From positions 1-20,124 of the IMG/VR virus record IMGVR_UViG_3300037808_000209: a stretch of 20,124 nt of DNA; one strand, written 5' to 3'. The position numbers and the translations under genes were made by a program. Positions 11,290 through 20,124 of the stretch are shown here, piece by piece. Origin of the DNA: a virus. Numbering within the stretch: the first letter of the stretch is position 1; each line of letters starts with the position of its first letter. The notes under the pieces are model-generated. The model was not told the origin of the DNA. It saw nothing but the letters and a program-made list of their open reading frames with translations, and did not search any database.

Positions 11290-12867
11290 TTATTTTACTT
11301 TTTGCCCAGTAATCCACGAAATCATACGTTTTTTAATCTTTTTCTTAGCTATCTTTTCTGACTTTACTTTAAACTCACTTGCATCAAATTTTTTACTAAC
11401 AGGAGACCTTGCCTTCGTAACCGCATACCAAAGTCCGTCTAATAAATCGTCATGCTTTCCTTTCGGGAATTGAAACATTTCATCAACTAAGTGCTGATGT
11501 TTTCTTTTAATAAAAAGCTTTCCTCTATTAACTAAGGGGGCGAGTAACGATTCAAGCCTATCTTCTTTTTTAATACCAGCTGGCGGTCTTACCCCCATAG
11601 CAATCCCAGGCATTACTCGCTTATCGGTAGATGATAATTTATTAACCGCATCTTTTATGATACCCTGAGCCCCTACATGTTCTACATTAGCTCTTTTAAT
11701 TGGGGCATATTGTTTCGCATAGTCCATAATTTCATTAGGCATATCATATAAAGGAATATGCTCTCTAAAATAGTCTAATACATAAATATTTCTATCGCTA
11801 TCAATCCCTATAACCATAATAATTTGAAAATCGCTCCTAGCAGTCGCTTCATAAGCAAGGTCAACCCCAAGGTATACATTAATAGGAATCACTTCCTTAT
11901 TATTAGCTATATACGTAAAGTCATCCTTAGACATAAACTCATGGTCGTAATATTCAAGTCTATCAATTTTAAACTTAGCATTTTGTAAATCTCTCGCTTC
12001 ATTCAGATATTCTTGCGCAAATTTATGGACTAATCCTACATCCTCAAAGCGCTGTCTAATAATTAGAAGCTTCTCTCTAGAAAAGTAATCTGGCCAGAGA
12101 ATATTATCTCCGTCAATTGCCTTGCGATATAAAACATCCCAAGCGTATCCTCGTTTATCTCTTTTAGCCTCTTGCCACCCATCGTATATGCCTTGTAAAA
12201 ACGAGTCGAAATGAACAATAGTTCCAATAAGCCATATAGACCCCTCATTGCCAGCAGAATTTTCAAGAGCAGGCTCAACCGTAGACATTACCCATTCTTT
12301 AATCTCGTTACGCCTTTGGGGCGTTTTTGTATTTAATTCAGACTCAAAATCATCAAGGATAATATTTGTATATCGAAGTCCCAATTGAGACCTACCGCGA
12401 AGTCTCTGTGATGTCCCTTTAGCTATAATCCTATCTCCTTTACTGGTAGTAAACTCCTTCTCTGTCCATTTATTCCCACGTAAGTCGCCAAAATAATAAT
12501 TAAGAGCTGGGTTCATATCAATATGGTTTTGTATATACTTAATATGGTCAATAGCTTGAGATTGCTCCTCAGCTACCCACGCAATAAACTCACGTTTCCC
12601 CTCGGGATTAAAATAAAGTTTATACATAAGAGCAGCCTTAGCTAGCGTGCTTTTAGAATGACCCCGAGGGAGAATAATACAATTTCGCTTCTTATTGCCG
12701 TCAAGAAGAAGATTACTTAATTCGTAATGATATGGAGCTGGAGAAGACTTCATAAAATCTTCAGGCATAAAAAGTTGCCCAAATGAAACAATATCTCTAC
12801 GAGCTATCTCTAAGACTCGCTCCTTCTCATTTATATTATTTTTGTTTATGTTAAACGATTCAGCCAA
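11290..12867 (-). CDS. terL: Terminase large subunit (525 residues)
   Basis: The packaging motor and headful or site nuclease. ATPase half: Walker A-like LPRGHSKST at residues 66-74, Walker B IILDD at 169-173 with catalytic Glu175, and coupling motif WLIGT at 212-216. Nuclease half (RNase H-like): GVDLAYEATARSDF with Asp336, a central acidic residue near 397, and KHDDLLDGLWYA with Asp473/Asp474. Length is normal. The first codon is TTG at 12867, six bases after GAGGG inside the preceding gene, which it overlaps by 22 bases. No nearby ATG is available. It is followed by a terminator. Confidence 0.95.
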   Translation of the reverse strand: MAESFNINKNNINEKERVLEIARRDIVSFGQLFMPEDFMKSSPAPYHYELSNLLLDGNKKRNCIILPRGHSKSTLAKAALMYKLYFNPEGKREFIAWVAEEQSQAIDHIKYIQNHIDMNPALNYYFGDLRGNKWTEKEFTTSKGDRIIAKGTSQRLRGRSQLGLRYTNIILDDFESELNTKTPQRRNEIKEWVMSTVEPALENSAGNEGSIWLIGTIVHFDSFLQGIYDGWQEAKRDKRGYAWDVLYRKAIDGDNILWPDYFSREKLLIIRQRFEDVGLVHKFAQEYLNEARDLQNAKFKIDRLEYYDHEFMSKDDFTYIANNKEVIPINVYLGVDLAYEATARSDFQIIMVIGIDSDRNIYVLDYFREHIPLYDMPNEIMDYAKQYAPIKRANVEHVGAQGIIKDAVNKLSSTDKRVMPGIAMGVRPPAGIKKEDRLESLLAPLVNRGKLFIKRKHQHLVDEMFQFPKGKHDDLLDGLWYAVTKARSPVSKKFDASEFKVKSEKIAKKKIKKRMISWITGQKVK

Positions 12868-13202
12868 TCTTTACCCTCAATTTCTTCAAATACCCCTACA
12901 TCGTTATACATTAATGTACCAATAGAATACATCCATGCGTCAATATCTTCGCCATTAATATCTACCTTTACTTGCCGTCTTTCATACAACCCAGAGTCCA
13001 CCCCCTCATATCTATCATATCCAACTAAATCAGCAATATCAACATCTATTACCTCAACAACAAGCTTCTTTGCGTCTTTTGATGGGATAGCCACAGGAAA
13101 GTTCTTATGCCCTGGATACGCTAATTTAAAACCATTTACAAGCCCTATGTCTCGACTCCCATTCCTTAATGTTCCATATACGGCTAATTTATCTATTATC
13201 AA
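12846..13202 (-). CDS. Gamma-glutamylcyclotransferase-like (AIG2/GGCT fold) protein (118 residues)
   Basis: The N terminus VYGTLRNG (residues 8-15) is the substrate-binding loop signature of the GGCT/AIG2 fold. YDRYEGVDSGLYERRQVKV (62-80) carries the catalytic Glu66 and the usual LY-x-R strand. Family members release 5-oxoproline from gamma-glutamyl amines or peptides. It starts at TTG 13202, overlapping the TerS stop as TTGA, with GGGAG eight bases upstream, and its end overlaps terL, so it is embedded in the packaging operon. A metabolic-type enzyme here is unexpected. It may act on gamma-glutamyl amide bonds made by the amidoligase system at the right end of the window. Fold assignment is good; substrate is unknown. 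Confidence 0.85.
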   Translation of the reverse strand: MIIDKLAVYGTLRNGSRDIGLVNGFKLAYPGHKNFPVAIPSKDAKKLVVEVIDVDIADLVGYDRYEGVDSGLYERRQVKVDINGEDIDAWMYSIGTLMYNDVGVFEEIEGKDWLNRLT

Positions 13203-13963: not shown

Positions 13964-14042
13964 TGCGTGTCAATACCCATAAGGCTATAGAAAGCCATAT
14001 AGCTTCAAACGCATACATAATAGTCATCGCCATATTCTTCAT
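13953..14042 (-). CDS. Single-span membrane peptide, 29 residues
   Basis: The ATG at 14042-14040 overlaps the stop of the HExxH gene as TAATG, and the TAG stop lies 11 bases inside terS. The product is MKNMAMTIMYAFEAIWLSIA followed by LWVLTRNGK: a Met/Lys start, one transmembrane helix of about 20 residues, and a basic end. Both borders use tight coupling, supporting translation. It could be a small holin-like or membrane regulatory peptide, but no lysis enzyme is seen beside it. Confidence 0.55.
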   Translation of the reverse strand: MKNMAMTIMYAFEAIWLSIALWVLTRNGK

Positions 14043-14326
14043 TATTTTTTTAATTGCTTCCATATATACTCTCCAACGCCAATTTGATGTAATCCATTCG
14101 CTACTCCATCAATCCAATCTTCGTTATGCTCATGCCCAGCATTCGTAAGCACCACATGAACTATTTCGTGTATCAATGTCTCCATCTTACGGCTATGGAT
14201 TAAATTCTTATCAAGTCTAATCTCGCAATTACGAGCATCATGCATTCCAAGAAGCATCTTCCCATCATGCTCCAATTTATCATTCTCTATAATTGTGTAT
14301 TTATGCCCACCTATATCAAGTCTCAC
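14042..14326 (-). CDS. Putative zinc metallopeptidase-like protein with HExxH (94 residues)
   Basis: The core is METLIHEIVHVVLTNAGHEH, with zincin-type H53-E54-x2-H57 (numbered from the GTG start) on a helix, followed by NEDWIDGVANGLHQI, where an acidic residue could be the third Zn ligand. Small phage proteins of this kind are known but their substrates are not. The start is taken as GTG 14326-14324, because AAAAAGGAG ends five bases before it and it follows the preceding stop by one base (TAAGGTG). The in-frame ATG at 14353 would overlap the upstream gene and has no good ribosome site. It leads the packaging operon with its Cys4 neighbour. Confidence 0.7.
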   Translation of the reverse strand: MRLDIGGHKYTIIENDKLEHDGKMLLGMHDARNCEIRLDKNLIHSRKMETLIHEIVHVVLTNAGHEHNEDWIDGVANGLHQIGVGEYIWKQLKK

Positions 14327-14327
14327 C

Positions 14328-14540
14328 TTATCTCCTTTTTGTTGTTTTTTCATTATTTATAGACTTAAGCACTATGTTTTGAAAATATTCACACTTATCC
14401 TCAATACAATTTTTCATAGCTAAGTCAGAGTCCACCCATTGGTAGAGTTTTTTGCCTTTATGCTTAATCATAACTCCCAAACACTTACCGTTGTTCCAAT
14501 TAGCGCAATACGTCTTTGCTATATTTGATGCTTTTTCCAT
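14328..14540 (-). CDS. Cys4 mini-protein (70 residues)
   Basis: From ATG 14540 the product has C12, C20, C45 and C50 in the pattern YCANWNNGKCLG ... KNCIEDKCEYFQNIVL, a spacing that suggests one Zn or another metal site or two disulfides. The C terminus is basic (NNEKTTKRR). The frame is open further up to a TTG at 14558 (six more residues), but that start has only a poorly spaced AGGG. I do not recognise a named family. It is the first gene of the leftward block and may be regulatory. Confidence 0.6.
   Translation of the reverse strand: MEKASNIAKTYCANWNNGKCLGVMIKHKGKKLYQWVDSDLAMKNCIEDKCEYFQNIVLKSINNEKTTKRR
14332..14340 (-). promoter_or_regulatory. Ribosome site AAAAAGGAG deciding the HExxH gene start
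   Basis: Leftward AAAAAGGAG ends at 14332, five bases before GTG 14326, inside the last codons of the Cys4 gene. It favours GTG over the ATG at 14353. Confidence 0.7.
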
Positions 14541-14706
14541 ACTGTATATTACAAACAAAACCCTATACCATCCAACAAAAATAAATTATTTTTAAATATT
14601 GAAAGAAAGTTGTTGGATACCTACCCTTTTATGTTGTAACTTACAGGGCGGTAGTTGCCCAAAGTCTATTTATTTACTTATATAACTATATATTTATTTA
14701 TCTCTA

Positions 14707-14742
14707 TTCTTTCTTTCTTTGGTTCTTTCTTTCTTTCTTTGG
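14707..14742 (+). repeat. TTCTTTC simple repeat, two units ending in TTTGG
   Basis: Two runs of (TTCT)n-type sequence each end in CTTTGG (14707-14722 and 14723-14742), giving a pure pyrimidine/purine strand bias of about 36 bases. It could affect DNA structure or be a slippage-prone tract. Confidence 0.7.
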
Positions 14743-14780
14743 AAATGAAAAATGTCTTAAATCCCTCTAAAATAGCCCTT

Positions 14781-17550: not shown

Positions 17551-18645
17551 ATGTGTGGACTGTTTGGTTTTGCTAAGAAACAAAATAGCCAGAATGACGA
17601 GCAACTTGCTATTGCAAGAGCGGTTCTGGAACACCTCGCTATTGAATCACAAACAAGAGGAAAGGATAGCACAGGGCTATCTTTAATTACACCTGATGCA
17701 AGAAAGACTTATAAGGGTGCGATTGCAGCTACTGAATTCGTAAAGAATAAGAAGTGGAAAGAAATATCAGCCACTATTACCTCAGACACAACGATTGCTA
17801 TTGGACATACAAGATTCGCTACTCATGGGACTGTGAGCATACGAAACGCGCATCCATTTAACGTGGGACAGGTTACTGGCGCTCATAATGGAATAATCTT
17901 CAACTACAATAAACTTGCTAAGGAAATGGGGAAGTCTGTGGAGGTGGATTCTGAGGTAATCTTTGGTAAACTTAATACGACAGAAAAAACAAAAGCTTTT
18001 GAGGATATTTATGGCGACTTTGCTGTCAGTTGGGTTAAGGATGATAATAGAATACTGCATTTAGCGAGAGAAGATGGAAGACCCCTCAGCATTGCGTATT
18101 GGAAGAGAGCAAGAATAATGTTTTATGCTTCTACTGATACAATACTTCGCTCTGCTTTAAATAAAGCTGGAATGACGTTAAACATATCTGATTTTCCTAA
18201 AGATATGATTTATACTTACAATACAGAGAAGTTCAATAAAACGACAAATCCCGAAAAAGCGAAGTTCCATACAGTAAGTCAAGATTATACTCAGCCTATT
18301 GCTTTGTATAAGACCTATGAAGATGCATCGTATCAGGATTACTGTGAAGTGTGCGGAGACCATGCCCATGACTACACAGGGAGATGTAAGATTCATTATG
18401 AATCGCTCTATGGAAACCATACAGTCATTTGTTCTCAATGTAATCAAGAATATCCTGAAAAGAATACATATTTTGATGAAGCATTTTGTGTAGATATATG
18501 TGAAAACTGCATTGAAATTGAAAATGAATGCGCTTACTGTGGGGACTTAATCCTTGATTTAAGCCCAGCTACACGAGGCGTTTATACGATGTGCGTCCAC
18601 TGTGCTGACATATTTGACAATGAATTTACAACAGAAAAGGAGTAA
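17551..18645 (+). CDS. Class II glutamine amidotransferase with C-terminal zinc modules (364 residues)
   Basis: The start MCGLFGF gives N-terminal nucleophile Cys2 after Met removal, as in Ntn-hydrolase glutaminases. The further signature is GlmS/PurF-like: TRGKDSTGLS (35-44), GHTRFATHG (85-93), RNAHPF (98-103), GAHNGIIFNYN (110-120) and VDSEVIF (132-138). All expected glutamine-binding pieces are present, but no sugar isomerase or transferase domain follows. Instead residues 265-351 carry metal-binding pairs: C265-x2-C268 with C279/H282, C294-x2-C297 with C317-x2-C320, and C327-x2-C330 with C348-x2-C351. The enzyme should release ammonia from glutamine for a partner, most likely the amidoligase two genes on. 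Start ATG 17551 has AAAGGAG seven or so bases upstream. Confidence 0.92.
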   Translation: MCGLFGFAKKQNSQNDEQLAIARAVLEHLAIESQTRGKDSTGLSLITPDARKTYKGAIAATEFVKNKKWKEISATITSDTTIAIGHTRFATHGTVSIRNAHPFNVGQVTGAHNGIIFNYNKLAKEMGKSVEVDSEVIFGKLNTTEKTKAFEDIYGDFAVSWVKDDNRILHLAREDGRPLSIAYWKRARIMFYASTDTILRSALNKAGMTLNISDFPKDMIYTYNTEKFNKTTNPEKAKFHTVSQDYTQPIALYKTYEDASYQDYCEVCGDHAHDYTGRCKIHYESLYGNHTVICSQCNQEYPEKNTYFDEAFCVDICENCIEIENECAYCGDLILDLSPATRGVYTMCVHCADIFDNEFTTEKE

Positions 18646-18648
18646 AAA

Positions 18649-18927
18649 ATGAAAAAGGTAATTTTACTGGGGTTTGATGCCCCTGTTAAAAAGAAATCCA
18701 AGTCTTTTGTTCTTAAGGCTCTCTATAAACGGGCTAAAAAAAATCCATTTATATCAGATAAATCTTATAAGGAATATTTGGAATATCTGAAGGAGCAGAT
18801 AGAATTTTTTAATGATACATACGACCTTTCAAGTGAAAATAAAATTTACGACAGTCTTAAAAAGATTGGCTGGATTAAAGTTATAGGTTCTATGATTGCT
18901 ATTGTTTCCGTAAACACTGGAGTCTAA
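18649..18927 (+). CDS. Hypothetical protein between amidotransferase and amidoligase (92 residues)
   Basis: ATG 18649 follows the glutaminase stop by three bases, with AAGGAG just upstream. The N-terminal 40 residues are Lys-rich and partly hydrophobic (KKVILLGFDAPVKKK), then comes a charged helix (SYKEYLEYLKEQIEFF) and a hydrophobic end (GWIKVIGSMIAIVSV). It is not recognised. The tight three-gene spacing suggests it belongs to the same system, perhaps as a carrier, regulator or target. Confidence 0.7.
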   Translation: MKKVILLGFDAPVKKKSKSFVLKALYKRAKKNPFISDKSYKEYLEYLKEQIEFFNDTYDLSSENKIYDSLKKIGWIKVIGSMIAIVSVNTGV

Positions 18928-18928
18928 A

Positions 18929-20124
18929 ATGACAGAAAAAGAGAAATCTAATCAAGATTTACTTGAATGCTTTGCCTGTGACACTCTTATTCCATGCGAT
19001 GAAATGTCGTCCCTGTATGATGATGTCTGTGTTGATTGCGAGGATAATGTGCATTCCTGCGGTGAATGCTCGGACATAATCCTGTCTGGCGACGAGATAT
19101 ATGCAGGCTCAACTTCAGATTATTATTGCGAATCCTGTTTTGACGAATTCTTTCGTTACTGTTCTAATTGTCAAGAAGATGTCCAAGGCGATGATGTAAA
19201 TTATTCTGAAGGTGGCGACGCATACTGTTATGATTGTTATGGTGAAATTTATAGCTTCTGTTATGATTGCGGAGAAGAATGGGCTGAAGAAGAATTACAT
19301 TACGATAACGGTGATGGCTACTGTGACGAATGTCATAGCAACGTTGTGAACAATGCTTCTACATTCATTCAGAATTCCCCACAATCAGTTAATGTAAGGC
19401 ATATACCTTCTGATACTTTTAATAAACTTAATGTAAGGCGACTAATAGGGGTAGAATTAGAATGTGTATATCCAGAACCGCATGGTATTATTTCTAATCC
19501 AAATAGTTGGCGCTCTACGTCAGATAGTAGTATTCAGTCCGACCAAGGATTTAATGCCACAGAACTTGTTTCTATACCAGCTAATGGGAATGCTCTTATC
19601 GGGGTTATTGACGAAGCTATTGAATGGAGCAATACTTGGAATGCTGATGTTAATAAAAGCTGCGGGATGCACGTTCATGTAAACGCAGTGGATACTGATT
19701 GGGAAGATTTAAGGGCTATTGCAATGGTAGTTTCTCATTTTGAAAGATTTATCTTCCAGATGATGCCCCCATCGAGACAGAATGGTAGGTGGGCTAAAAA
19801 ATTAGATACAGATTTTGACGAATTAAAGCAAACGTCATCTGAGGAAGAATTTGTTGAAGACTGGTATCGTTACGAGAGTATTTCAAGGTCAAAATATAAT
19901 GGAGCAAGGTATCGTGGTCTGAATTTACACGCAAGATGTTATTTAGGGACAATTGAATTTAGATATCATTCAGGAACAATGAATAAAACAAAAATAATTA
20001 ACTGGATTAAAATATGCAATTCCATAGTAGAGACAGGAATGGCTTTGTCTCAAATGATGAAAGATGGAGATGCATCTGGGAATTATTTTTTCAATGAAGT
20101 GAATACGTCAGACACTCTCGATAC
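18929..20124 (+). CDS. Amidoligase_2 family COOH-NH2 ligase with four N-terminal zinc modules (partial, C terminus off window)
   Basis: ATG 18929 is preceded by GGAG and follows the upstream stop by one base. The frame is open for 398 codons to the edge. Residues 14-135 hold eight C-x2-C pairs that group into four modules: C14/C17-C34/C37, C44/C47-C67/C70, C78/C81-C100/C103 and C111/C114-C132/C135, spaced about 30-34 residues. From 174 comes the amidoligase domain: GVELE (174-178), a WRSTSDSSI element (194-202), TELVS (211-215), SCGMHVHVN (244-252), HFERFIFQ (270-277) and ARYRGLNLH ... LGTIEFRYHSGT (326-350). This is the layout of Amidoligase_2, glutamine synthetase-like enzymes that use ATP to join a carboxylate to an amine. 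GVELE supplies metal-binding Glu and H-x-H the paired His. The partner glutaminase lies upstream. Confidence 0.87.
   Translation, partial: MTEKEKSNQDLLECFACDTLIPCDEMSSLYDDVCVDCEDNVHSCGECSDIILSGDEIYAGSTSDYYCESCFDEFFRYCSNCQEDVQGDDVNYSEGGDAYCYDCYGEIYSFCYDCGEEWAEEELHYDNGDGYCDECHSNVVNNASTFIQNSPQSVNVRHIPSDTFNKLNVRRLIGVELECVYPEPHGIISNPNSWRSTSDSSIQSDQGFNATELVSIPANGNALIGVIDEAIEWSNTWNADVNKSCGMHVHVNAVDTDWEDLRAIAMVVSHFERFIFQMMPPSRQNGRWAKKLDTDFDELKQTSSEEEFVEDWYRYESISRSKYNGARYRGLNLHARCYLGTIEFRYHSGTMNKTKIINWIKICNSIVETGMALSQMMKDGDASGNYFFNEVNTSDTLD

Follow-up and report, generated by a model that had tools for sequence, protein, structure and literature searches.

Gene organization of the locus

The window, which is the whole stretch of DNA analyzed here and the complete record of a viral contig, has a length of 20,124 bases, and three genes in the same direction fill its last 2.6 kb (Table 1). 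They encode a class II (Ntn) glutaminase, a 92-residue protein (U92), and an Amidoligase_2 enzyme, and are separated by gaps of 3 and 1 nt. An earlier note, made from the sequence alone, had described a tight operon of these three genes, and both the spacing and the profile matches confirmed this description. The ribosome-binding sites of U92 and the amidoligase are likely located inside the last codons of the preceding genes. In two relatives (L010 and L021), a TAGGAG motif places the ribosome-binding site of the amidoligase as in the window. Promoter and terminator scans gave results at chance level, PADLOC returned zero defence-system matches, and NCBIfam returned none above the cut-off.

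Table 1 Features of the glutaminase–amidoligase locus and the associated cyclotransferase gene.
Feature	Coordinates	Strand	Basis
Class II (Ntn) glutaminase, 364 aa, Cys-rich C-terminal tail	17551..18645	+	GATase_6, PHROG 4736, catalytic residues
Cys-rich, probably zinc-binding, C-terminal tail of glutaminase (residues 265–352)	18343..18606	+	Five CxxC
U92, 92-aa conserved protein, predicted helical	18649..18927	+	Kept in 18 relatives
Probable ribosome-binding site (GGAG) of amidoligase	18919..18922	+	Within final U92 codons, ...ACTGGAGTCTAAAATG
Amidoligase_2 enzyme, 398+ aa, 3' side cut by contig end	18929..20124	+	PF12224, conserved residues, GS/YbdK fold
LIM-like zinc array at amidoligase N-terminus (residues 14–135)	18968..19333	+	Eight CxxC
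AIG2-like gamma-glutamyl(amine) cyclotransferase (GGACT)	12846..13202	-	PF06094 4.4e-12

The GGACT gene, whose product commonly accompanies such cassettes, is outside the coordinates of the earlier note and on the opposite strand, between the genes for the terminase small and large subunits, and it likewise adjoins the large subunit gene (TerL) in relatives whose loci reach that far. Elsewhere on the minus strand, the contig start cuts the gene of a tail-fibre-like protein (1–2160), whose C-terminal part matches several PHROG tail fibre families, and positions 14042–14353 encode a small putative zinc metallopeptidase (SprT-like 8e-4, M78 0.006, PHROG 1233 9.6e-16). A 'peptidase' is also encoded close to the corresponding cassette in Alcaligenes phage QDWS535. 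A repetitive tctttctttctt stretch (14700–14745) is located within the AT-rich gap that separates the two divergent gene blocks.

Enzymes of the operon

The glutaminase gene starts with an ATG at 17551 and its stop codon ends at 18645. The protein matched the Pfam profiles GATase_6 (2.6e-15; 57 bits against a cut-off of 27) and GATase_7 (4e-9), as well as PHROG 4736 (2.9e-41). The Ntn catalytic residues C2, R88, N113, G114, and D133 were invariant in an alignment with five diverse phage homologues, and the protein was without an acceptor or synthase domain, as the earlier note had claimed for a complete Ntn-type glutaminase. Judged from its family and these residues, the enzyme is predicted to release ammonia from glutamine. 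Its tail contains CxxC motifs at residues 265, 294, 317, 327, and 348, which had been overlooked before; the tails of the nearest relatives, of several LUZ24-like glutaminases, and of glutaminases from diverse cassettes contain two. No relatives were retrieved when viral contigs were scanned with the single proteins P0001 or P0002 (the latter being the window amidoligase).

The amidoligase matched PF12224 at 1.2e-27 (97.8 bits against a curated cut-off of 22) and at 4.5e-30 in a six-frame search, although Pfam itself labels this family 'putative'. Twelve residues (G174, E176, E178, D199, S201, E212, H248, H250, R283, N332, E343, and R345) were invariant, and the conserved pattern ExE...D.S...E...H.H...R...N...EFR was present together with a glutamine synthetase (GS)-like fold. 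An AlphaFold2 model built from a 35-row alignment had a pLDDT of 80. The top chains in a Foldseek search with this model were glutamine synthetases, at a weak E of about 0.005, and VIA-align gave Z scores of 11.6 for glutamine synthetase (4bax) and 11.1–11.3 for YbdK over about 200 residues; the fold matches also included glutamate-cysteine ligase. The predicted fold of residues 163–398 is shared with the glutamine synthetase/YbdK (GCS2) superfamily, but with a sequence identity of about 10–16%, at which substrates are not transferable. The conserved positions are those expected for a working enzyme of the superfamily, and the protein is probably active. Both family assignments of the earlier note and the glutamine-synthetase-like fold that it anticipated agree with these searches. 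A scan with the ligase of relative L075 returned itself only, and a single distant relative, from Parabacteroides, came up when bacterial genomes were scanned.

A LIM-like zinc array on the amidoligase

The N-terminal part of the amidoligase contains eight CxxC motifs with a spacing of 16-6-19-7-18-7-17, which the earlier note had also overlooked. Among the short or single downstream amidoligases of this lineage, all those read had 4–8 CxxC motifs before the catalytic domain, with more in the single ligase of L075, while any CxxC was found in 1 of 80 in the amidoligase-led sample. A profile of the lineage ligases matched LIM chains (E 9e-4), the Pfam LIM profile matched 2 of 35 homologues (best 1.9e-6), and Foldseek showed a resemblance to PINCH LIM4-5 (probability 0.99, E 0.017). 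We call the array LIM-like rather than LIM because its finger spacing is 6–7 residues, compared to two in a LIM domain, and because Pfam gave no LIM match for the window amidoligase. LIM-like arrays are usually protein–protein modules. The array and the Cys-rich tail of the glutaminase are probably docking modules that hold the partners or the target together. The array and the catalytic part showed discordant identities among relatives (0.51 and 0.84 for L010/L013; 0.61 and 0.44 for L013/L014, respectively), which suggests that modules may have been exchanged by domain swapping.

The small protein U92

U92 had no Pfam match and one weak PHROG match (E 0.008), to a family whose function is unknown. 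The gene is real, since it was conserved in 18 relatives with identities of 45–55%, where it lay immediately downstream of the glutaminase and, where the locus was long enough, upstream of the short amidoligase. The AlphaFold2 model of U92 (pLDDT 63) was too weak for a fold search. A kinship with the protein preceding the amidoligase in LUZ24-like cassettes was rejected (hhalign probability 0.1%, both alignments being thin). The conserved tail NIGV/NTGV was also considered as a modified peptide tail, but this idea was weakened by the ribosome-binding site of the next gene, which is embedded in the same codons and partly explains the conservation. A sister branch (L027–L073) is without U92, yet has kept the array and the ligase.

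Co-occurrence of the glutaminase and amidoligase genes

A pattern scan of IMG/VR based on the glutaminase alignment yielded 80 loci, whose open reading frames were searched with profiles of the partner genes. An amidoligase was present within 3 kb of the glutaminase in 73 of the 80 loci, and the other seven were cut close to the glutaminase. Where at least 3 kb was visible on both sides, the amidoligase was beside the glutaminase in every case (55/55), so the co-occurrence that the earlier note had proposed to check was borne out. These loci are not independent counts, since the set, once the window and four named phages had been added, formed 19 clusters at 50% glutaminase identity, the two largest having 47 and 20 members. 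In the reverse search from amidoligases, a glutaminase was found within 5 kb in 18 of 80 loci, and in 6 of the 31 with a wide view. The other 62 had no glutaminase within this distance, many of them being cut short, which implies that the ammonia supply is not always needed. Taken together, the glutaminase appears to depend on the ligase, while the ligase often occurs without it.

The closest branch (L010–L026, L070) contained a second, paralogous amidoligase upstream of the glutaminase, usually of about 600 aa and with CxxC motifs in the middle of the protein, which was not found at this position in the window. In one relative (L080, 3482–6205), the frames of the second ligase and the amidoligase were each split in two, either through a frameshift or because of an error in sequencing. 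Searches of 14 related contigs (31–57 kb) revealed no ATP-grasp or PF14395 ligase, with LUZ24-type controls being positive; the window contig is incomplete, and the sensitivity of the PF14395 profile is limited, as it missed the gene found by a home-made profile in L085. This pattern is suggestive of a lineage without ATP-grasp and PF14395 ligases.

Pairwise dN/dS values among relatives were 0.12–0.26 for the glutaminase, 0.02–0.23 for U92, and 0.24–0.47 for the amidoligase, compared to 0.03–0.07 for the terminase. The three genes of the operon are under purifying selection, which is weakest on the ligase.

Comparison with known phage cassettes

The pairing of a glutaminase and an amidoligase is already known from many phages as a 'peptidoglycan modification' cassette. 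The pair occurs in LUZ24-like, RIO-1-like, OM43, and Alcaligenes phages, in most cases accompanied by GGACT, ATP-grasp, and a second ligase (PMC3890496, PMC5498523, PMC10580990). We also found the full combination in Alcaligenes, Vibrio, and LUZ24-like phages (see also PMC3890496). The cassette was predicted to alter the peptidoglycan side chain and to block superinfection (Iyer 2009 and Hardies 2013, through PMC5498523, PMC10580990, and PMC11945000). The earlier interpretation therefore held for the enzyme classes, for the operon, and under the profile, fold, and co-occurrence tests that it had named against itself, but its description of the substrate as undefined in phages gives too little credit to a literature that already has a name and a proposed target for the cassette. 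In the literature that we read, no enzyme product, substrate, or biochemical proof was given for a phage Amidoligase_2. A degradative role of the glutaminase and a recycling reading of the cassette have also been offered (PMC5498523). In the RIO-1-like phage HP1, the cassette genes were among those expressed immediately upon infection (PMC7082346).

The LUZ24-like cassette (UFV-P2 ORFs 21–29; PaP4; PMC3890496) resembles that of the window in having Amidoligase_2 and the class II glutaminase (GAT-II) in one operon and AIG2/GGACT in the genome, and the GAT-II of PaP4 also has C-terminal CxxC motifs (a pair). Unlike the window, it has an extra ATP-grasp and a PF14395 COOH-NH2 ligase, GGACT lies within the cassette, the amidoligase is without a zinc array, and there is no U92. 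The RIO-1-like cassette (PSA-HP1 ORFs 40–47; Hardies 2013; PMC5498523), from a marine phage, shares GAT-II, amidoligase, and GGACT, but is contiguous and has two named amidoligases and an ATP-grasp. The aquatic OM43 phages MEP401 and MEP402 have PF12224 and PF13522, for which a cell-wall role has been suggested after Iyer 2009 (PMC10580990). Genes 65–66 of Arthrobacter phage Ottawa form a similarly minimal amidoligase–GAT-II pair, in which the order is reversed and the zinc array and U92 are absent. What is new in our study is a lineage variant with an N-terminal LIM-like array, a Cys-rich glutaminase tail, and GGACT between the terminase genes, and for which the search of 14 related contigs yielded neither an ATP-grasp nor a PF14395 ligase.

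Proposed function and alternative explanations

We propose that, early in infection, the cassette uses ATP and nitrogen from glutamine to amidate or aminoacylate a carboxylate, most likely in the cell wall, and give this statement as a whole a probability of about 0.45. The enzyme classes and the joint pathway are very probable, while the cell-wall target, taken from the published prediction, is tentative. The glutaminase would free ammonia from glutamine, and this ammonia is presumably transferred to the ligase. The amidoligase, being of the glutamine-synthetase/glutamate-cysteine-ligase type, would use ATP to activate the carboxylate as an acyl phosphate and then couple it to ammonia or to an amino compound, while the LIM-like array and the Cys-rich tail may dock the partners or the target. 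The modification would most likely affect the peptide side chain in the peptidoglycan of the host, or in peptidoglycan precursors, so that the altered surface would hinder a second phage, and GGACT, placed with the late genes, may trim gamma-glutamyl-amine products. The profiles, catalytic residues, GS fold, 55/55 adjacency, occurrence of the same pair in Alcaligenes, Vibrio, and LUZ24-like phages, purifying selection, early expression in HP1 (PMC7082346), and superinfection prediction support this proposal, in which the early timing, target, and benefit of the cassette are predictions. Since the lineage seems to be without ATP-grasp and PF14395 ligases, the published peptidoglycan model may apply to it only in part.

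Of the alternatives, the strongest has a protein as the target, recruited through the array. The amidoligase would then be a protein ligase that uses the array to bind a single protein of the host or phage, or U92, and that amidates or aminoacylates it. The LIM matches of the array and the usual role of such modules point in this direction, as do its absence from nearly all other sampled phage amidoligases and the high dN/dS of the ligase relative to the terminase, as expected for a partner in host conflict; R2K ATP-grasp ligases in phages, for which such a role has been predicted, provide a precedent (PMC4431377). However, no partner was identified, the embedded ribosome-binding site accounts for part of the conservation seen in the U92 tail, and the sister branch retains the array and the ligase without U92. 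We consider this explanation rather unlikely, and its fuller form, in which the GS-fold ligase, fed by a dedicated glutaminase, acts on one particular protein of the host or phage (possibly U92) that the array brings to it, somewhat more doubtful still.

The cassette could also act on a small molecule, with the ligase building a gamma-glutamyl or other amide metabolite and the glutaminase and GGACT breaking it, for nitrogen or amino-acid economy. The known GGACT family acts on gamma-glutamyl amines, which fits this explanation, as do the fold matches to YbdK and glutamate-cysteine ligase, the existence of some phages with the ligase and GGACT only, and the recycling reading in the literature (PMC5498523). 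This is unlikely given that the zinc array points to a macromolecule as the partner and that GGACT lies outside the operon here. That the glutaminase has a different purpose and was merely inherited beside the amidoligase is highly improbable, because all 55 fully visible glutaminase relatives keep an adjacent amidoligase despite changes in order and copy number, even though most sampled amidoligase loci show no nearby glutaminase.

The cassette of this lineage is real and ordinary in kind, with a lineage-specific domain design. Such cassettes are widespread in phages, and a change of the host surface has been predicted for them since 2009. With a glutaminase, a ligase, and one small protein, the lineage has a reduced version, for which expression and assays are easier than for the seven-gene cassettes, and the zinc array can serve directly as bait in a search for the target. 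If the protein-targeted system were true, it would represent a new type of protein modification made by a phage, and not a change of the cell wall.
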